Shown here one piece after another: positions 2,361 through 22,868 of a DNA stretch of 24,474 bases. Every line of letters begins with the position of its first letter. Position 1 is the first letter of the stretch. The position numbers and the translations under genes were made by a program. The notes beneath the pieces were generated by a model. That model made no database searches, had not been told where the DNA came from, and saw only the letters and a list, made by a program, of their open reading frames with translations. The DNA is from a virus: positions 1-24,474 of IMG/VR virus record IMGVR_UViG_3300025141_000716; one strand, written 5' to 3'.

Positions 2361-4546
2361 TATTGTATCAGTCCTTTCACCTGGGCTTCCAGCAGGGCGA
2401 TGCGGTGGTCTCTATCGTCTAAAGCTTCCTTCAACTCCATGATGTGGGTATGATTCTGCCAGATGCCACCCCCCAATAAACTGTTCATGCGCTGCATATT
2501 GTAGAAGTGGCCCTCGCTACTTAACACCCCCACTCGCTTCAAGTCTTCGGCGTTGGCGTCTATCTGGGCGTCCCATCTCGTCATCATGATCCCCACATTG
2601 TTGTGGAGGGTACGTTCAAAGGTGCGAATAAGCCCGATATCGTCTTCGCCATCCAACGCCACACCATCCAAATCACCGCTACCAGCTGTGATGTTGGTCG
2701 CGTGGAGCGCGCCATCGCCTTTGATTAGAAGTCGAGTCGTATCGGCATTGTCGAAACTAACCAAGTTTCCCGTAGCAGCAACAGCGGCAATGCTGGTCCC
2801 ACCGTCCGTAATATTTCCGCTAATTTGAACTACCCCATCGCTTGCCGTAATATCTGTAGTGTCGGCAGCTTCCCCTAAATTTCCCTGTAGGCGCAAGGCA
2901 GCGGAAGCGGCACCGTCCGCATCTTTGAATCCCATCACTAATAACCCTCCAGCAGTAGCTTCGCCCTTTTTAAGCGTTCCATAGGTATCAGCCTCTGCAT
3001 AACCCGTCATCGCGTGACCCACATCGCTACTCTTCAGCGCCAACGCTTCATCGTCATTTGCCCCTTGATTAATCGTTAACCCCTGCGTCATGTTGGTGTT
3101 GGTGGTGTCGCCAATGAAGACGTTGCCGCCGTTGAAATGGCTGTCACCATAGCTACGGAGTGTTACGTTTGCAACTTCGGAGTCGTCGTGCAAGGAAAAG
3201 TACCCCCCGTAACCCGGCACATCCTCCAGGTTAACCCGAAGGTTATAAGAGTCGCCACTGTCAACTAACTGGACCTTGTGACCAGATCCGGCAATCTGCA
3301 AAGCTTCCGTTGGACTCGCCGTGCCGATGCCTACGTTGCCAGCGTTATCCGCCGCCATTACCACAGTCCCCGGCGCCGCTCCCTGTGAGGCACCCACCCG
3401 CAATTGCCAGTCTCCGAAGTTCGTTTTATTGGTGATGAAGTCCCAATTCCTGGCCCCTCCATTGGCGTGGCCAGTCTCCAAAGTGAAGGTGGGAGACTGG
3501 CTTGTGTTTTTGATAATAATGCCGGTTGCGTCCGTGGCTGTAGTTACGTCTAGCACCTCGCCAGGACTCGCCGTGCCGATGCCTACGTTGCCGTCGATGA
3601 CCACAGCGCCCGATCCCACGACATCGGGATTGATCAACAGATTGGTCCCATCATACGAGATGGTCGCATCCTCGCCCGTGCCAAAGACCATCGCCTTGGA
3701 ATCGAGTAGATGGATCTGCTCCGAGACGTAGACGTTTTTCGCGACACCTAAGCCCCCATCGGTCTGGATCGAGCCGGTTGTGCCAGAGGCCGAATCCGTG
3801 GTATCGTCCACCACGATGGCAGGCACAAAGGTTGCCGTAGCCGCTACAAAGGTCAGCGAGTCCGAGCCTGCGATACGGATGCGCAGATCGTCTTCGGCGG
3901 CGGCATAGAGCCCCGAGTCCTTGTCCTCGTCCAGCATCACGCCCACGCCTCCCGCCTCACCGGAAAACCACTCCTCCTGGGGCATCGTCAGGTCCAAGAG
4001 GATGCGGCCCGTAGACGCATGGACTACCTCGACGTAGCCTACGACTTGGACAAACTCAGAGGACGAAGGTCGCGTCAGCGTCCAGCTTCCAGCTGTAGTC
4101 GATAAATAGACGGGATCGCCTACGGCACCGGACGATGTATCGACGCCTGAGATTTCTTTGACTTGCGCTACCGTGCCATCCGCATCGTTGGAGATCGCCG
4201 CATCGGCTACGCCTACGGCAAATAGATGCAAGGCCAGCGTAGCCGATGCATCGGCCAGGGCGACGGTCGGGTAGTTGTCCGTGCCATCGGAGTAGGTGCC
4301 CGAAAAGTAGATCAGATCGTTGGCCGCCATGGCCGAGCCGGAGTCGTTTCTGACTTTGTGGCGCAAGCCCAAAGGCGAGGCATGCGAGCGCATCGAGCCG
4401 GGACGCAAGCCGTTGTCCTGTACGTTGAGGTAATCCAGCTTGGTGGTATTTAAAAGGGTGCGGATCTCGGTCAGGGGCACCGAGACGTGCGTCCAGTTGT
4501 GGGCCAGTCCGTTGGCACCGGCCAGGGTCAGAGAGAGGGCTGGCAT
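2360..4546 (-). CDS. Tail fibre / receptor-binding-type protein (728 aa)
   Basis: A long, Cys-free protein rich in Gly, Ala, Ser, Thr and Asp with short repeating beta-strand patterns. The motif GNVGIGTASP occurs at about residues 319-328 and 403-412, with a weaker relative (GGNVFIGDTT) near 473-482. This motif is typical of fibres in aquatic phages and of beta-helical repeat proteins. The N-terminal 200 residues look like a separate attachment region. The last ~30 residues (HTHIMELKEALDDRD...LEAQVKGLIQ) form a coiled coil, consistent with a trimer. No clear S74-type self-cleaving chaperone motif is seen. The start overlaps the stop of the nozzle-like gene as TAATG, as expected for an attached fibre. 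The fibre call is strong and receptor binding is inferred. Confidence 0.8.
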   Translation of the reverse strand: MPALSLTLAGANGLAHNWTHVSVPLTEIRTLLNTTKLDYLNVQDNGLRPGSMRSHASPLGLRHKVRNDSGSAMAANDLIYFSGTYSDGTDNYPTVALADASATLALHLFAVGVADAAISNDADGTVAQVKEISGVDTSSGAVGDPVYLSTTAGSWTLTRPSSSEFVQVVGYVEVVHASTGRILLDLTMPQEEWFSGEAGGVGVMLDEDKDSGLYAAAEDDLRIRIAGSDSLTFVAATATFVPAIVVDDTTDSASGTTGSIQTDGGLGVAKNVYVSEQIHLLDSKAMVFGTGEDATISYDGTNLLINPDVVGSGAVVIDGNVGIGTASPGEVLDVTTATDATGIIIKNTSQSPTFTLETGHANGGARNWDFITNKTNFGDWQLRVGASQGAAPGTVVMAADNAGNVGIGTASPTEALQIAGSGHKVQLVDSGDSYNLRVNLEDVPGYGGYFSLHDDSEVANVTLRSYGDSHFNGGNVFIGDTTNTNMTQGLTINQGANDDEALALKSSDVGHAMTGYAEADTYGTLKKGEATAGGLLVMGFKDADGAASAALRLQGNLGEAADTTDITASDGVVQISGNITDGGTSIAAVAATGNLVSFDNADTTRLLIKGDGALHATNITAGSGDLDGVALDGEDDIGLIRTFERTLHNNVGIMMTRWDAQIDANAEDLKRVGVLSSEGHFYNMQRMNSLLGGGIWQNHTHIMELKEALDDRDHRIALLEAQVKGLIQ
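3312..3592. repeat. Pair of 29-bp exact direct repeats inside the fibre gene
   Basis: Positions 3312-3340 and 3564-3592 are identical and encode the repeated GNVGIGTASP strand-turn motif. The identity is at nucleotide level, so the two copies are either recent or kept alike by recombination. Confidence 0.9.
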
Positions 4547-7270: not shown

Positions 7271-7710
7271 CAGTAAATCTCCCCGTATTCCATGTTCATC
7301 ATCGACCTCATATCCTCTTTGGGCACATTGATCGCCCCCAACTCTTCGGCGTCTTTGGCTACGGCAGGCCGGATCTCGCGGGCAATAGCTTCGCAATCGT
7401 CGCGATACTGTTTGACCTCTCGTTCTTCGGCCTTTTCCTGGCGCTCGATCGCCTCGCCCAATACGATGTCGGGACCTCTCCTTTGCAGATCCATCGCAGC
7501 GATGACTTGCAGAGTGCGATTATCCAAAGGCCGATAGGAGCCATCCGGATTTTGGATCGTATCGATTAAGACCTCGCGCTCATAGAGTTGGTTCTTCGAC
7601 GGGATTTTTCGATACAGCTTCCACTTCTGGCTCATCGGGTGCCACTTGACATTCAGCTTTGAGTCGTAGGCTTTGAGCCTTTTCATAAACACTCGATCGG
7701 GTATATACAT
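7270..7710 (-). CDS. Phage protein of unknown function overlapping the transferase gene (146 aa)
   Basis: GGAGG lies 3 bases before the ATG at 7710; a later ATG at 7686 has no ribosome site. The first 131 bases overlap the 3' end of the methyltransferase-glycosyltransferase gene in another frame, an unusually long overlap. The N-terminus (residues 9-35) has a small mixed domain, FMKRLKAYDSKLNVKWHP then QKWKLYRK. The C-terminal half is a charged helix (EAIERQEKAEEREVKQYRDD) ending in an acidic/Met-rich tail. This resembles small conserved phage proteins found near head-tail genes. No name is offered. Confidence 0.65.
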   Translation of the reverse strand: MYIPDRVFMKRLKAYDSKLNVKWHPMSQKWKLYRKIPSKNQLYEREVLIDTIQNPDGSYRPLDNRTLQVIAAMDLQRRGPDIVLGEAIERQEKAEEREVKQYRDDCEAIAREIRPAVAKDAEELGAINVPKEDMRSMMNMEYGEIY

Positions 7711-9355
7711 CTTCCTCCACCATGTTTAAAAAGCGAGATTTGCTGGATTCGTAATTAAAGGCTCTCGCCTGTTCTCTGCCCTGGTTCATTATCGCCTCGT
7801 AAAAGCCCCGATCTTCAATCAGCGCACGGACCTTTTGACGTGCGCCGACGATGTCGCCCTGTCGGATGGTCAGCTCAGGGAAGCACCAACCCTGCGCATA
7901 GACGTTGTCGTAGCCGATGGTGGGGATGCCCAGGCAGGCCAACTCCACCGTTACGCGACCAAAGACGTGATGGGTGTAGGCGTCTATGGCCAGATAGAAG
8001 CCTTTGAGGGTATCCAGCGCTTGCCAGTTTTCCATGATGGGCAAGACTCTATCGTATAAAAGCGGGTGGTAGGTATTCAGCGTCAGACCCGATTCAACGC
8101 CGGTGATGGAGGGGGCATGAGAGCCCATCAGGTAGGTCTCTAAGCCCATCTCAAAAAGCATCCAGTAGGGCAAATATTCTTGCCGATCCCTATGGGCCAT
8201 GACCACTGCATTTTGGCGATAGTCGACCTCGATCGCCTTTTCTTTGATGAAGGACACATCGACAGGATGTGGACACCAGCCGATGTCCTTGCCAGACAGA
8301 TCGTGCATCAAATTCTGCACGCAGGGCTCGGAGGCAAATAGATAATCGGCGCAGCGCAACTGCTCTACAAAGACGTGGGGGAAGGGCGGAAAGCCTTCCC
8401 ATACCTCCAGGGCGTAATCCAGATTGACCACCAGCTTGGTATCGGCGCCCTCTCGATCGATGGCTTTGCGGATACGGCGCACATTGTCGAAGTTGGAGCC
8501 AGAGATCTGGACATGTAAGACTTCCCAATTACCCGGACTTTGCAGAGCTTTATTGATGTCGATCGCCTCGCCGCCAAAGACCCGCTGCCAGTTGTAGACG
8601 CCGGTGCGATTGAGCCCCTCGACGCGGATGCGCTCGTTGCCCAAGTCTGCTTGGCCGGGCAGGGCGCCGACATAGGCGTAGGCCAGATCCAAAGGCGTCT
8701 TCTCCAAAGTCAGCACCCAATTGGCATTGGCTTGCCTAAGCGAGTGTTTCCAGCGGCGATCCTGGGAAATATCGGCGATCATCTGCTCCATGTATTTCTC
8801 AGAAAACTCGTGCAGATGATAGGGCGAGGGGATCAGTCCGTCTTTGGGCACCGTGACGATCAGCGTGCCGCCCTCTACGACCCTCTGCCACAGAGACCAC
8901 AGCGCCTGCAAAGGGTTGAGCAAATGCTCCAAGACCTCCATGCAGATTACATAGTCGTAGCGATCTTCGCCCTCATCGGCAATATCACCAGTGAAGAAGT
9001 GATTGGCGATCGTCGTGTCGAGGTGCCCTTTGCAAAACTTGATGGCATCCTCGGAGCAGTCCATGCCATAGGCTTCGACGCCATTGAGGTGAGCTGCTAC
9101 CACCAGACGCCCATTGCCGCAACCCACATCCAGCAGGCGCCCCTCTTTGAGCTGGTGGATACTCTGCCAGACCTCGGCCTGTATGGTCGTAAGATTTATG
9201 TCATCGCCTAGCTGCACGGTCTTCCAATTGAAGTTTTTCCGATCCGCGCGGAAGGCTTTATCATACTCCTTGGCCCAGGACGCCCGATTTGCACCGGGCG
9301 CCCTCTCGGCCCAATCCTGGGAGTAGTCTTTGAAATGTGCGTTTCTCTCGTTCAT
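7580..9355 (-). CDS. Two-domain SAM methyltransferase / GT4-like glycosyltransferase (591 aa)
   Basis: Residues about 55-200 form a class I SAM-dependent methyltransferase: motif I is LLDVGCGNG (74-82), an acidic residue follows at the second strand (GMDCSEDA, 97-104), and YDYVICMEVLEHLLNP (133-148) with GGTLIVTVP (162-170) is the usual late core. Residues about 240-590 look like a GT-B, family-4-like glycosyltransferase: a first Rossmann half with NLDYALEVW, a link at GWCPHPVDVSFI (359-370), and the hallmark second-half segment FGRVTVELACLGIPTIGYDN (465-484) whose Glu471 would contact the donor nucleotide sugar. It sits inside the virion operon, so it may modify a virion glycan, host surface sugar or a protein. 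The substrate cannot be read from sequence. The nearest good ribosome site, AGGAG, is 13 bases before the ATG. Confidence 0.85.
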   Translation of the reverse strand: MNERNAHFKDYSQDWAERAPGANRASWAKEYDKAFRADRKNFNWKTVQLGDDINLTTIQAEVWQSIHQLKEGRLLDVGCGNGRLVVAAHLNGVEAYGMDCSEDAIKFCKGHLDTTIANHFFTGDIADEGEDRYDYVICMEVLEHLLNPLQALWSLWQRVVEGGTLIVTVPKDGLIPSPYHLHEFSEKYMEQMIADISQDRRWKHSLRQANANWVLTLEKTPLDLAYAYVGALPGQADLGNERIRVEGLNRTGVYNWQRVFGGEAIDINKALQSPGNWEVLHVQISGSNFDNVRRIRKAIDREGADTKLVVNLDYALEVWEGFPPFPHVFVEQLRCADYLFASEPCVQNLMHDLSGKDIGWCPHPVDVSFIKEKAIEVDYRQNAVVMAHRDRQEYLPYWMLFEMGLETYLMGSHAPSITGVESGLTLNTYHPLLYDRVLPIMENWQALDTLKGFYLAIDAYTHHVFGRVTVELACLGIPTIGYDNVYAQGWCFPELTIRQGDIVGARQKVRALIEDRGFYEAIMNQGREQARAFNYESSKSRFLNMVEEDVYTRSSVYEKAQSLRLKAECQVAPDEPEVEAVSKNPVEEPTL

Positions 9356-14875: not shown

Positions 14876-14905
14876 AATATACTCAATCCTATTCGTCTTT
14901 GTCAA
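14876..14905 (-). promoter_or_regulatory. Sigma70-like promoter before portal
   Basis: On the minus strand TTGACA (14905-14900) and TATATT (14881-14876) are separated by 18 bases. The -35 is perfect and the -10 matches 5 of 6. Transcription would start near 14869, about 37 bases before the portal ATG, and would give head genes a dose separate from terminase. Confidence 0.7.
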
Positions 14906-15500
14906 GATAGCTTTGTGTAGCCCCGATCAAATCGAGCAGAGGTCCGATCTGCGGATCTTTGAATACGTCCTCGCTTAAAAGGGTTACAAAGCCCTCTTTT
15001 TCACTCCTTTGCGCCAATTGCTGGGCGTAGGCATCCATGCCTTTGCGCCACGTATTTAGATTGACGATCAATACGGCCCCCCCATCGTAGGACCAGGCCA
15101 CTTTCTCGGGCATGTTGGAGGACGCATAGATCGAGCGATGGGAGATGCCATCGACCAGATCTTGCAAGGCTTGGCCGGGGCCATAGGGGATGCGCTCGGG
15201 AGGCTGGGGCGTAGGCAGTTGGATCGTATCGACGCCCATAGACTCTCCCGTGGGAGAGATCGTCTCCACTGTTAGGGCGCCGTTAGTGCGTGCGATTTCA
15301 GTCTCTTCTCCCTGGGCGGCTTGCTCGGCTTTTTGACGCTGTCTCATTTCCTCTCCTGGGTTGGGGGTATGCACCGAAGAACAGCCGTCTTTGAGTCCTT
15401 TGCCGGTAAAGTGTCCGTCGACCACCTCGCCTTGTTTCATAGGGGCGCGGATGCCTGCCCGATCCACCTCGCGGCCTGGGGAAAGCGTGCGTTGAGTCAT
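14889..15500 (-). CDS. Unknown phage protein between terminase and portal (203 aa)
   Basis: The ATG overlaps the stop of the 85-aa membrane protein as ATGA. The first ~100 residues are polar, Gly/Pro/Glu/Gln-rich and probably disordered. Residues about 105-200 look folded (YGPGQALQDLVDGISHRSIY, then VAWSYDGGAVLIVNLNTWRKG, then FVTLLSEDVFKDPQIGPLLD). One Cys lies near residue 40. The gene ends about 57 bases before portal, and its 3' end carries the portal promoter. No family was recognised; it may be a terminase or head-assembly helper. Confidence 0.7.
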   Translation of the reverse strand: MTQRTLSPGREVDRAGIRAPMKQGEVVDGHFTGKGLKDGCSSVHTPNPGEEMRQRQKAEQAAQGEETEIARTNGALTVETISPTGESMGVDTIQLPTPQPPERIPYGPGQALQDLVDGISHRSIYASSNMPEKVAWSYDGGAVLIVNLNTWRKGMDAYAQQLAQRSEKEGFVTLLSEDVFKDPQIGPLLDLIGATQSYLDKDE

Positions 15501-15754
15501 TGGCCCTCTACCTCAGAGACGGTGGAAGAAGTTGCGGCCTGATCGTTCATAACTTGCTCCCAATAGTTGTCGGGCAACAACTCGGACTCGTTGGCCATCT
15601 GCACATAGCGCGTGCGCAGCGCCAATTGCTGATGGGTACGCAAAATCGCCGAGCGCTCCTTGCGCTCAGAGTTGAGCTGGCGCGCCAAAATAAGAATCGT
15701 AGCCAACTGGCCCAAATAGCCCAGTGCCAACAAGAAAAGCATGCTCTTATTCAT
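15497..15754 (-). CDS. Small membrane protein (85 aa)
   Basis: The start overlaps the terminase nuclease stop as TAATG, with GGAGG 8 bases before it. Residues 4-24 (SMLFLLALGYLGQLATILIL) form one clear hydrophobic span, followed by a basic segment (RQLNSERKERS) and a polar helical tail. An N-terminal anchor with a charged helix is the layout of some inner-membrane spanin-like or phage accessory proteins, but the lysis assignment is not supported by other neighbours. Treat it as a single-pass membrane protein of unknown role. Confidence 0.7.
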   Translation of the reverse strand: MNKSMLFLLALGYLGQLATILILARQLNSERKERSAILRTHQQLALRTRYVQMANESELLPDNYWEQVMNDQAATSSTVSEVEGQ

Positions 15755-16497
15755 TATACTAAAGCCTCCATGGGGGAATGCTGCATCCGCTCTCTCTTTT
15801 GCTTTTTGAGTTGCTTCTCCACCAGCCGATCCACCAGGGTCGGCTCTCGATCAGGCAAGGATAAGTCCTTTACGGATTCTGCGCCTGGATAATGAGGCAG
15901 ATGTCCCATCCGTTCCTGATTCACCTGGGTCAACTGCACGATGCGCATCAGTTCAATGGCGATCAGATCGCCCATGACCAGATCGTCGTGGGCGCCCGGG
16001 ACGGCCTGATATTTGCCATTTATAAGCGCAAAGGTCTCCCACTGTCCGATCAACCGCTCCGAGTTGATGATCGCCGAGCCGTCTTCCACCCAGCGGCGCC
16101 CTTGTGGCACCAACCGGCCGCGCAGACGATGATTCATGGCCATGCCCAGCCGGGGGGTGGGCCGATCGATGGCTTGCCGGACATCCTGCTGCTCAAAGTA
16201 GATCTTGCGATAGCCAATATCAAAAAGGTGCCTGTTAGCGCCCCCATCGCCCAGGCCGGGTGGATTTTCAATGCCTACCAGGGCTTGATTGTAGACCTCG
16301 CCCAACATGGAAGCCAATTCAGCCAGTTCAAAGGGTCCAATCTTGCCTTCCAACTCGGCAGCTTGGTTTCCCGTTCGAACATTTCGGCATTGCAATACTG
16401 AGCTGTCCCCCGAGTTTAGCCCTTCAGCCACATCGCCGCCCAGGACATAGACCTCTCCCTCTTGCGCCTTTTCCCAAACCCTGAGATCGTAGCTCAT
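15754..16497 (-). CDS. terL (C-terminal part): Large terminase nuclease domain as a separate gene (247 aa)
   Basis: An RNase H-like terminase nuclease. The opening YDLRVWEKAQEGEVYVLGGD is the usual linker and first strand. Asp22 (GGDVAEGL), Glu77 (VGIENPPG) and Asp171/Asp172 (GAHDDLVM) fit the metal-binding triad. It lacks an ATPase domain. The start overlaps the stop of the 66-aa gene as ATGA; there is no good ribosome site, so coupling probably drives translation. It would cut concatemeric DNA into headful or unit lengths together with the ATPase encoded two genes upstream. The C-terminal ~50 residues are basic and helical. Confidence 0.85.
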   Translation of the reverse strand: MSYDLRVWEKAQEGEVYVLGGDVAEGLNSGDSSVLQCRNVRTGNQAAELEGKIGPFELAELASMLGEVYNQALVGIENPPGLGDGGANRHLFDIGYRKIYFEQQDVRQAIDRPTPRLGMAMNHRLRGRLVPQGRRWVEDGSAIINSERLIGQWETFALINGKYQAVPGAHDDLVMGDLIAIELMRIVQLTQVNQERMGHLPHYPGAESVKDLSLPDREPTLVDRLVEKQLKKQKRERMQHSPMEALV

Positions 16498-16694
16498 GGC
16501 GCCTGATGCAACACCGCCACTACGGGAATGCCATCGGCGGTGCAGGGCAGCTTCTTTATCGAGGGTGTGGTGGCCAGAGGCGAGACGCCGGAAGGGGTGA
16601 AGGCGGAAGGATCAAAGCCCCCTCCTCTCAAAGGTTGCTTTTTACGCATCGCATCGTCAATAAAGTCCTGTACATTTATCGTGCGTCTATTCAT
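16494..16694 (-). CDS. 66-aa protein between the two terminase halves
   Basis: Starts at 16694 as an ATGA overlap with the ATPase stop and ends as an ATGA overlap with the nuclease start. The frame reaches further upstream (16763), but that would run inside the ATPase gene. AAGGA lies about 11 bases before the ATG. The sequence begins MNRRTINVQDFIDDAMRKKQ (basic helix), then a Gly/Ser/Thr/Pro-rich stretch, and ends GIPVVAVLHQAP. It does not look like the missing terminase linker. It may bridge or regulate the two halves, which is inference from position alone. Confidence 0.7.
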   Translation of the reverse strand: MNRRTINVQDFIDDAMRKKQPLRGGGFDPSAFTPSGVSPLATTPSIKKLPCTADGIPVVAVLHQAP

Positions 16695-17686
16695 GCGGCA
16701 ATCATCCTTGAGGTTTCTCGTTCGTCTACCATTAACTCCATCTTCTCGTATTCTCTCGAGCACCCTTCGCGCAGTTGGCGCAAGAGCTGATTGCTCAGGG
16801 CGCGTTTTAAGCCGGTGGGCGTAAACATGCCGTAGATACGCGCCTCGTATTCGTCCTCTTCAATCTCTTGGATATATTTTTTGATCGCCTCCTCAGATAG
16901 ATGCGGATTGTCCAGCATCGACCAGTGATGAAACTCTAGGTCCTTATCGATACGCGGCACGTAGAGATCTTCGTATACCCAGGGGATGCCTTTCTCTGAG
17001 ATAGGAGTAAAAGTATTCACAAAATAGCCGTTGTAGTCGATCAGTCGAGCGCGGCACTCCTCATAGATGGGTTTGGGACAAACCTCATCGGCATGGATCT
17101 TGTGGCGCGGCACCCCTTGAAAGGCCGTGCGCCCCTGCGAAGAGTATTTAAAGTTGATGCGAGAGCCGTTGCTCCAGGGCAAAACGTGTCCGGAGAAGCC
17201 TGATTTGTCGGTCCACTTGGCCGAGTCGTCGACAAAGTTCCACATGAAAGAATCCGTCTCAAAACCCAAGACATCTTGCACCAGGGTGCGCTGGACGATC
17301 TCGATGGCGGTTTCCTCCGTGTCCGAGACGGTCCACATATCGATGGGATGTTCGAAGCGGGTGGAGGGTTGCTTGCTCATCGGGTCCATCATCAAGCAGT
17401 CGCAGGCGTCCTCATGCAAAGCGACTGCCGTTTTCCCCGATCGATTGCCACAACAGCCGAACTTGTTGCGGTGGTCGCTCTGGAGAAATCCCACCTGACA
17501 AGTACCACTCTCACCAAAGGGTTGGAACTGAAAGAAGGGCTCGGTGACGATTTGTTGGGTGAGGTCATAACCTTCGGGGTCGGCATCTTGGACAAAGAGT
17601 TCCTTCCAAGGATGGGCCAACAAATCAGCAGATAAGGCCAAAAGATCCCTTAGCCGGGGCGTGTCGTAGCCCAAATCAGGCTTCAT
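16691..17686 (-). CDS. terL (N-terminal part): Large terminase ATPase domain as a separate gene (331 aa)
   Basis: The start at 17686 has AAGGAG 7 bases before it; a frame extending to 17719 lacks this support. It has a Walker A loop GNRSGKT (residues 80-86), a Walker B IHAD-E with the catalytic Glu (Asp200-Glu201), and a coupling motif FVNTFTP (222-228). The ATPase fold ends near DEYEARIYGMFTPTG (278-292), where terminases usually cross to the nuclease. This one stops about 40 residues later, and the nuclease is a separate gene. It powers DNA packaging into the prohead at the portal. Confidence 0.85.
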   Translation of the reverse strand: MKPDLGYDTPRLRDLLALSADLLAHPWKELFVQDADPEGYDLTQQIVTEPFFQFQPFGESGTCQVGFLQSDHRNKFGCCGNRSGKTAVALHEDACDCLMMDPMSKQPSTRFEHPIDMWTVSDTEETAIEIVQRTLVQDVLGFETDSFMWNFVDDSAKWTDKSGFSGHVLPWSNGSRINFKYSSQGRTAFQGVPRHKIHADEVCPKPIYEECRARLIDYNGYFVNTFTPISEKGIPWVYEDLYVPRIDKDLEFHHWSMLDNPHLSEEAIKKYIQEIEEDEYEARIYGMFTPTGLKRALSNQLLRQLREGCSREYEKMELMVDERETSRMIAA

Positions 17687-17879
17687 TGCAATGCTCCTTG
17701 AGGCGGTCCAGATCTTCATAATGCACGACGCGAAAGCCTTTGGGATCGCGGGCGTATTTAACGAACCCCTTAGCCTCCCACATACGAAGCGTATGCTTGG
17801 GCAAACCCAGCAATTGAGCCGCTTCTGTCAAGTAGAGATACTCGACCAGTCCCAACTGCTGCGGAAAATAGCGCGACAT
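17676..17879 (-). CDS. Small winged-helix DNA-binding protein upstream of terminase (67 aa)
   Basis: Residues 13-45 form a MerR/excisionase-type helix-turn-helix: YLYLTEAAQLLGLPKHTLRMW, followed by a wing (GFVKYARDPKGFRVVHYEDLD). The 3' end overlaps the ATPase start by 11 bases. A protein of this type just before the large terminase can be a regulator or a small terminase subunit (lambda gpNu1 also opens with a MerR-like winged helix). At 67 aa it lacks room for an oligomerisation region, so a regulator or reduced small subunit are both open. The ATG is 6 bases after a TATATT box, so the mRNA may be leaderless. Confidence 0.75.
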   Translation of the reverse strand: MSRYFPQQLGLVEYLYLTEAAQLLGLPKHTLRMWEAKGFVKYARDPKGFRVVHYEDLDRLKEHCNEA

Positions 17880-19038: not shown

Positions 19039-19491
19039 ATGCATCTCCACCTGCAACGCATCTCCACCTCCTCCGAATCTACATTGGGCGTTCTCTCTGT
19101 CGATGGCGTCTTTGAGTGCTACACGCTGGAAGATACGCGCCGCCCCGACAAAGTCTCTGGCGAGACGCGCATCCCCTCGGGCCACTACGACATCGAGCTT
19201 AGGGTCGAGGGAGGCTTGACGAAGAAATACCAGAAGAAATATCCCACCTTCCACAAAGGCATGCTCTGGCTTAAAGAAGTGCCCCACTTTGAATACGTCT
19301 ATCTCCACATAGGAAACACCCGCGCCCATACCGCCGGTTGCATTCTGGTGGGAGACGCCATAAACAACAATCGAGAAAAAAACGGCTTCCTATCCTCTTC
19401 AGCCGTTGCTTACGAGCGTCTCTACAAAAGAGCGATTTTTAACATGGCCCAATCGGACGCGATCACCCTGCTGGTCTCGGACTTATTGTAA
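19039..19491 (+). CDS. DUF5675-family protein (150 aa)
   Basis: AAGGGG lies 5 bases before the ATG. The family pattern is clear: FECYTLEDTRRPDKVSGETR (residues 28-48, the CYTLED and K-V-x-G-x-T elements), IPSGHYDIELR (about 49-59), then VYLHIGNTRAHTAGCILVGD (about 93-112), the H-x-GN...D/H-T-x-GC-I-L signature. These conserved His and Cys residues are reminiscent of L,D-transpeptidase active sites, so a cell-wall role has been discussed for such folds; this is inference. DUF5675 proteins are frequent in phages and mobile elements. No signal peptide is present. Confidence 0.8.
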   Translation: MHLHLQRISTSSESTLGVLSVDGVFECYTLEDTRRPDKVSGETRIPSGHYDIELRVEGGLTKKYQKKYPTFHKGMLWLKEVPHFEYVYLHIGNTRAHTAGCILVGDAINNNREKNGFLSSSAVAYERLYKRAIFNMAQSDAITLLVSDLL

Positions 19492-21923: not shown

Positions 21924-22790
21924 TCAGGGGGATTCGGGGTTAGGGGGGGGTGCCTCCTCTGGATCTACAGCCGACACCGCGCCACTATCCTGGGTTGGAG
22001 GTTGCCCATACTCTGCCTCAAAGTGCGCTATCGTAGCCGCCGCATGCTTGGGAATCGGCACGCCCATAGTCTCCGCGCGTGCCTTAATCCGGCGAGCACT
22101 ATAGTATCTGCTTTGTGCCCTAAAACGTGCATCCAAATCCAGCGTCTCCAATCCTGCGCCCTCGCCGCTGGCCGGCAGATCCTCAGCCGCATGAGGTCCA
22201 TCCGTCCGCTTGCGCCGCCGACTCTCCAGCGCCATTCGCGCCCTGGCCTGCAGCGACTCCGGCCCCTTCGTGCGCCCCTCATCGATCCGCTTCCTGGCCG
22301 TCGCATCCGTCCCGCCCAAGCTCTCCGCAAAGGCCCTCATATCAGAAGCCCGCTCCACCACCTGATTGATCTGCACCTGAATGTCTGGCCCCACCTTGTG
22401 CTGATTGGCTACCTCTATTAACTTGTCGTTCTGCAACGTCTTACGCACCCACTCCATATATCCTAACATCGCCGTCACGCTCCCCGCCTCGCACGCCTCC
22501 AGCAGCAAATGCAACACCCTGGGCAAGATCACCGTAGCCCCTGCCGCCACCGACTTCAGAGCCATCTGTGCCACGTCCGGATCGCTCATCAAGCGGCCCA
22601 CATCCCCAGCCGACCAACCGAGCTGGTCCATCAAAGCTTTGATCGATGGCGTCGCCTTGCGCAGCGCCTCGGGCGTGGCCAACCACTCGACCAAAACCTC
22701 CTTCTGCAGCTCAATATCCGAGACCACACCCAACTCCACCGCAACGGCCTCGTCCCGGACGATCTCTTTTCTGCTTCGCTCTTTACCCAT
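21924..22790 (-). CDS. Possible small terminase subunit or DNA-binding protein (288 aa)
   Basis: The ATG at 22790 is chosen because a promoter -10 lies 7 bases before it; upstream in-frame starts lie inside the promoter. Residues about 20-75 contain an HTH-like region (TPEALRKATPSIKALMDQLGWSAGD then VGRLMSDPDVAQMAL, split here in text). It is followed by a helical stretch TVILPRVLHLLLEACEAGS then TAMLGYMEWVRKTLQND, which resembles the oligomerisation part of small terminases. The C-terminal half is Arg/Ala-rich and then acidic/Pro-rich (EEAPPPNPESP) and probably disordered. The gene is about 5 kb from the terminase ATPase on the same strand, which is unusual for a small subunit. The assignment is tentative. 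Confidence 0.5.
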   Translation of the reverse strand: MGKERSRKEIVRDEAVAVELGVVSDIELQKEVLVEWLATPEALRKATPSIKALMDQLGWSAGDVGRLMSDPDVAQMALKSVAAGATVILPRVLHLLLEACEAGSVTAMLGYMEWVRKTLQNDKLIEVANQHKVGPDIQVQINQVVERASDMRAFAESLGGTDATARKRIDEGRTKGPESLQARARMALESRRRKRTDGPHAAEDLPASGEGAGLETLDLDARFRAQSRYYSARRIKARAETMGVPIPKHAAATIAHFEAEYGQPPTQDSGAVSAVDPEEAPPPNPESP

Positions 22791-22797
22791 AACCTTC

Positions 22798-22826
22798 AAC
22801 ATAAATAAAGACCCCACGCAAGTCAA
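22798..22826 (-). promoter_or_regulatory. Leftward promoter of the 288-aa gene
   Basis: Minus strand TTGACT (22826-22821), 17 bases, TATGTT (22803-22798), then 7 bases (GAAGGTT) to the ATG. The -35 lies in the proximal copy of a tandem 28-bp repeat. The short distance suggests a leaderless or nearly leaderless mRNA. Confidence 0.6.
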
Positions 22827-22868
22827 ACCCCGCAACTTCTCCCACGCAAGTCAAACCCCGCAACTTCT
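22813..22868. repeat. Tandem 28-bp repeat overlapping a promoter
   Basis: Two perfect adjacent copies (22813-22840, 22841-22868). Each contains AGTCAA, the complement of the TTGACT -35. Only the proximal copy has a matching -10. This is the layout of an operator duplicated next to the -35. Confidence 0.9.

Follow-up and report, generated by a model that had tools for sequence, protein, structure and literature searches.

A large terminase divided between separate ATPase and nuclease genes in a lineage of uncultured tailed phages

A hallmark gene of tailed phages and a phylogenetic marker, the large terminase (TerL) is regarded as one two-domain chain; most tailed phages encode both domains in this way. 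The classical enzymes of T4 (gp17), P74-26, D6E and Sf6 are single chains with a hinge. The lineage described here shares their fold, their key residues and a nearby portal gene, but its terminase is encoded by two genes and has no covalent hinge. A review of T4 (PMC9958956) describes the interdomain hinge of its TerL as essential, with separated domains that stay active but lose translocation.

Interrupted terL genes have been described in Jug phages, which carry group I introns (PMC12363816), and in Mic1, which carries inteins (PMC7156551). In both cases splicing restores the chain, whereas the lineage here has separate genes and no intron match in the 8 loci searched. In phi29, too, the motor function is separated from active cutting (PMC7672431), but gp16 keeps a vestigial nuclease domain in its chain, whereas here an intact nuclease is made as a separate protein.

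Besides the intron and intein cases, a literature search on split TerL returned only one domain-split terL, that of Parabacteroides phage PDS1 (phiPDS1), and found no lineage-wide case. The PDS1 ATPase and nuclease parts are annotated as two CDS, for which the authors suspect the codon table or the assembly (PMC10773633). Ahead of its annotated start, the second PDS1 gene continues as an open, nuclease-like frame that runs into the end of the first one; judged from sequence, the case looks like a frameshift inside a chain, not a clean gene boundary. Furthermore, the PDS1 terminase belongs to another TerL family, phrog_38. Two other candidates for a split terL were rejected: the 'two separate genes' of Arthrobacter cluster AN are lysis genes (PMC5679792), and the split gene of an OM43 phage encodes DNA polymerase (PMC10580990).

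The two halves of the terminase

The window, the whole stretch of DNA analysed, comprises 24474 bases and is a virus record from IMG/VR. On its minus strand an ATPase ORF (ATG at 17686, stop ending at 16691) is followed by a 66-aa ORF and then by a nuclease ORF, and both junctions are ATGA overlaps of 4 nt (Table 1). The ORFs and their motifs bear out an earlier note on this DNA, which had described a large terminase spread over these three ORFs with two such overlaps.

Table 1. Features of the terminase region and its surroundings in the window.
Feature	Position	Strand	Basis or remark
Predicted ATPase subunit of TerL, 331 aa (packaging motor)	16691..17686	-	Terminase_6N, model, P74-26 match
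66-aa putative accessory ORF in ATPase/nuclease junction	16494..16694	-	ATGA overlap with both genes
Predicted nuclease subunit of TerL, 247 aa, with D22/E77/D171 in an RNase H fold	15754..16497	-	PHROG, model, residues
85-aa protein, one N-terminal hydrophobic stretch; conserved neighbour	15497..15754	-	Overlaps nuclease stop
203-aa protein, conserved downstream	14889..15500	-	Homologues in 25 clusters
Portal protein, 728 aa	12646..14832	-	P22_portal 5.2e-17 (Pfam); phrog_156 portal 2.9e-26
67-aa MerR-type HTH protein	17676..17879	-	Pfam MerR 1.4e-7; overlaps ATPase start
HTH-type family homology inside ORF 21924-22835	22278..22712	-	jackhmmer profile E 1.2e-37

The ATPase ORF carries Walker A (GNRSGKT), Walker B (IHADE) and motif III (TP). 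Residues K85 of Walker A, E201 of Walker B, and T227 and P228 of motif III are kept in all 31 aligned rows, while position 200 is Asp in 27 rows and Asn in 4. The protein matches Pfam Terminase_6N (1.9e-9) and aligns to positions 253-463 of the 807 in phrog_2. An AlphaFold2 model built from a 31-sequence alignment reached a pLDDT of 87.4, and its top solved structure was the P74-26 TerL ATPase domain (4znl, E 5.5e-10). Sequence searches of solved structures gave no match with the window ATPase and one weak match with the window nuclease.

The acidic residues of the nuclease ORF, D22, E77 and D171/D172, are invariant in 30 of 30 sequences. The window nuclease matches PHROG 38407 and 24361 (best 1.2e-15), the latter named terminase, and its AlphaFold2 model (30-sequence alignment, pLDDT 83.4) matches the nucleases of T4 gp17 (E 2.1e-10), G20c (E 4.2e-9) and RB49. 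The nuclease of a relative, L003, aligns to phrog_2 at 475-597 of 807, so that the window ATPase and the L003 nuclease lie in order on one fused profile.

Among 14 closely related pairs, dN/dS was 0.03–0.31 for the ATPase (12 pairs computable) and 0.02–0.24 for the nuclease (13 pairs computable), values that are rough for both halves, with dS above 1 (saturated) in several pairs. These ratios, far below 1, indicate purifying selection on both genes.

Fourteen of 31 ATPase C-termini end in -AA. In several, such as GAGGCGGCATAATG in L112, this ending coincides with sequence that the following gene uses as its start or for ribosome binding, which is taken as the simplest reason for it. The ending also resembles a C-terminal degradation signal.

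Spread, split site and history of the lineage

Scans for close relatives returned 2 loci with the window ATPase alone and 1 distant fused locus with the window nuclease alone, and two-sequence alignments gained little. The first relative, on two contigs (L002/L003), has the same split, with an ATPase 49% identical in its best segment. A scan with the nuclease motif YVxGGDxAEG found at least 119 stretches. Among the matches listed, 16 of 119 loci (the duplicate of the L002 contig counted) have a nuclease ORF whose start is 14–17 codons ahead of the motif, and in every one of them an ATPase of the lineage lies upstream. The other listed matches on untruncated contigs are nearly all fused, with L115 and L120 set aside. 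In L115 (near 2834-3490), which belongs to another TerL family, the first start of the nuclease ORF lies 7 codons before the motif and the frame is open upstream, a pattern that may reflect a frameshift or another kind of split.

A scan with nine clade ATPases returned 79 loci. Profiles for both halves, with an ATPase E cut-off of 1e-40, yielded 69 loci with a lineage ATPase and nuclease, forming 34 clusters at 95% ATPase similarity, or 33 without the truncated copy L068. The halves are separate ORFs in 31 of these 33 IMG/VR clusters. Because the survey started from split proteins, this proportion may be biased towards split relatives, but the same search did find fused ones. The two fused clusters, L172 and L176, have a homologous ATPase and nuclease but in one chain (605 and 600 aa). 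Forty-five distinct junction sequences from the lineage, window included, show the split and give no hint of an indel; nuclease starts were set by rule and may be wrong by a few codons. From this survey the ATPase/nuclease split is judged to be real and conserved across a lineage of uncultured tailed phages.

No relatives were found in a genome collection scanned twice, and no cultured member of the lineage was found. The best 25 of 178 phage records for a clade ATPase are all at most 31% identical to it, and none of these 25 covers 80% of the ATPase in one place. Besides L172 and L176, the nearest relatives with a fused TerL are Arthrobacter phage Brad and Cellulosimicrobium phage DS1, which have a homologous ATPase but in chains of 527 and 537 aa, respectively.

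Alignment with fused TerLs places the end of the ATPase in the linker and the beginning of the nuclease at strand LRVW. The cut falls at the interdomain linker in all split clusters, with little or no loss of sequence. The linker alignment and the complete set of catalytic residues in each half agree with the earlier note that the split lies at the natural domain boundary. That note had also suggested assembly from two subunits or separate control of the nuclease; with both domains complete this is a fair inference, but its proposal that a 66-aa protein bridges them was not supported.

Trees of the two halves have 12 supported splits in common and 1 supported conflict, at the base (r = 0.83), and this agreement suggests that the halves travel together, with no sign that halves are freely exchanged. 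A tree of 38 rows puts L168 beside the window as its sister (99/97) and the split L174 with the fused L172/L176 (100/100). A single fission as one clean clade was not recovered, and starred branches force at least two changes of state. The history may thus comprise one fission with later re-fusion, or more than one fission.

The 85-aa protein has a homologue downstream of the nuclease, mostly directly, in 27–28 of 34 clusters (two jackhmmer searches). Proteins of its family (74–86 aa; for example L003:6178-6438) are hydrophobic near the N-terminus and share an LLRQLNxERxER-like motif; Pfam gave nothing above cut-off for them, and PHROG no clear match. Pfam and PHROG searches with the 203-aa protein gave no match. 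By eye, the portals of the window and of L008 (L008:6498-8696) contain a four-cysteine zinc-ribbon-like insert (CxxC..CxxC), and in the window portal Pfam gave weak, sub-threshold matches to zinc ribbons. A 591-aa ORF among the late genes of the window (7580-9355, minus strand) has an N-terminal methyltransferase-like match (phrog_27380, 2.9e-8).

Proposed terminase assembly and the ATPase/nuclease junction

The split, its site, the conserved residues, the folds, the lineage-wide spread and the variable insert are observed. They are probably explained by gene fission at the interdomain linker of the ancestral terL of the lineage, which would have left an ATPase and a nuclease that pair obligately in trans, with no covalent hinge, and a junction open to accessory genes. 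The ATPase ring would most likely drive translocation, with the nuclease most likely docking non-covalently for initiation and termination cuts. Small genes would settle in the junction, the 66-aa gene of the window being one such insert, and its ATGA overlaps would keep it in the translational chain, assuming translational coupling.

Absence of the hinge means either that a non-covalent interface replaces it, or that translocation needs no more than the ATPase ring, with the nuclease responsible for cutting alone. The latter is tentatively favoured. In its full form, which is advanced tentatively and at less than an even chance, the ATPase ring would translocate alone, the nuclease would join solely for cutting, perhaps in smaller numbers, and the junction would again be an accessory slot, for genes of lysis type, HTH genes and others. 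If true, this would contradict the general need for a covalent hinge seen in T4. The T4 data count against the preferred reading, since from them a terminase without a hinge would be expected to fail at translocation.

Following the T4 model (PMC9958956), the nuclease could instead be bound stoichiometrically to every ATPase as a moving part of the motor, through an interface that replaces the hinge. Co-evolution of the halves is consistent with such a motor, as are the similar protein levels that would be expected from overlapping genes. However, the interface is hypothetical and in L168 the genes for ATPase and nuclease are 3.35 kb apart; a motor of this kind is considered rather unlikely.

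Fission with a junction open to accessory genes, the preferred reading, draws on what lies between the halves. In 21 of the 31 split clusters nothing does (spacing -44 to +18 nt), while the other 10 have inserts that range from 193 to 3352 nt and in 9 carry genes other than the 66-aa ORF. Where the window has that ORF, L003 has a 149-aa M15 peptidase (Pfam 3.7e-12). An acidic protein of about 90 aa is common to L015, L029, L068 and L154, L043 has a 116-aa protein, and L174 has a hydrophobic ORF and a 154-aa ORF. The insert of L168 spans 3.35 kb with several ORFs (L168:6004-9290), and in the L047 cluster L157 has about 94 nt extra between the genes. These varied inserts suggest that the junction is an accessory-gene slot. 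Two ORFs in the insert of L168, the sister lineage of the window, appear glycosyltransferase-like by eye.

L149–L151 and L153 have a 163–173-aa HTH-type protein in the junction. Its family occurs in 21 clusters in all, elsewhere mostly upstream and often divergent on the other strand; copies include L149:4131-4622, L153:2632-3153 and L008:1424-2032, with two copies each in L149 and L150. This family, with the HTH-type homology of the window, is, speculatively, a candidate small terminase of the lineage. The MerR-type protein immediately precedes the ATPase in 5 clusters. M15 genes also lie directly upstream of the ATPase in L031, L053, L061 and L112, as do DUF5675 genes in many other relatives. 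The DUF5675 gene of the window (19039-19491, plus strand, 1.1e-28) is on the opposite strand to the ATPase.

The 66-aa ORF has a codon log-odds of 0.25, above all 140 shifted-frame windows; among 70 windows from true genes of the phage this value falls at the 6th percentile, and the ORF plausibly scores as coding. Together with the ATGA overlaps to both flanking genes, this would suit a third subunit, either as a bridge between ATPase and nuclease, which the earlier note had proposed, or as a regulator of the nuclease. Nevertheless, such a role is improbable: the gene occurs in the window only, among lineage clusters, and most members have no gene between the halves, so a bridge is not general. 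The 66-aa protein had no match in Pfam or PHROG and no relative in the clade loci or the viral_contigs scan. The note had named fused relatives lacking the 66-aa region as evidence against its view; L172 and L176 are such relatives, yet the insert-free split clusters indicate that the split is independent of the 66-aa gene. Perhaps the ORF serves solely to have the nuclease gene translated, by way of the ATGA chain.

Removal of the gap by an intron, an intein or a programmed frameshift, which would give one chain, has precedents in the Jug phages and Mic1 as cited above, but is highly improbable here. Rfam searches of 8 loci at gathering score gave no group I or II intron match, and by eye neither half has an intein-length extension and adjacent genes appear to leave no room for intein halves. 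Where the genes are directly adjacent there is nothing to splice, and the gaps of the other 10 clusters contain ORFs. Although the window is a single record, an assembly or sequencing error is refuted by the relatives that share its split site, and its probability is negligible.

Hinge dependence and TerL as a marker

The split lineage makes hinge dependence testable, by setting translocation through a nuclease domain and hinge, as in the T4 model, against translocation by an ATPase ring alone. It also opens the question of how cutting is controlled. Furthermore, marker searches for full-length TerL may misname the split genes.
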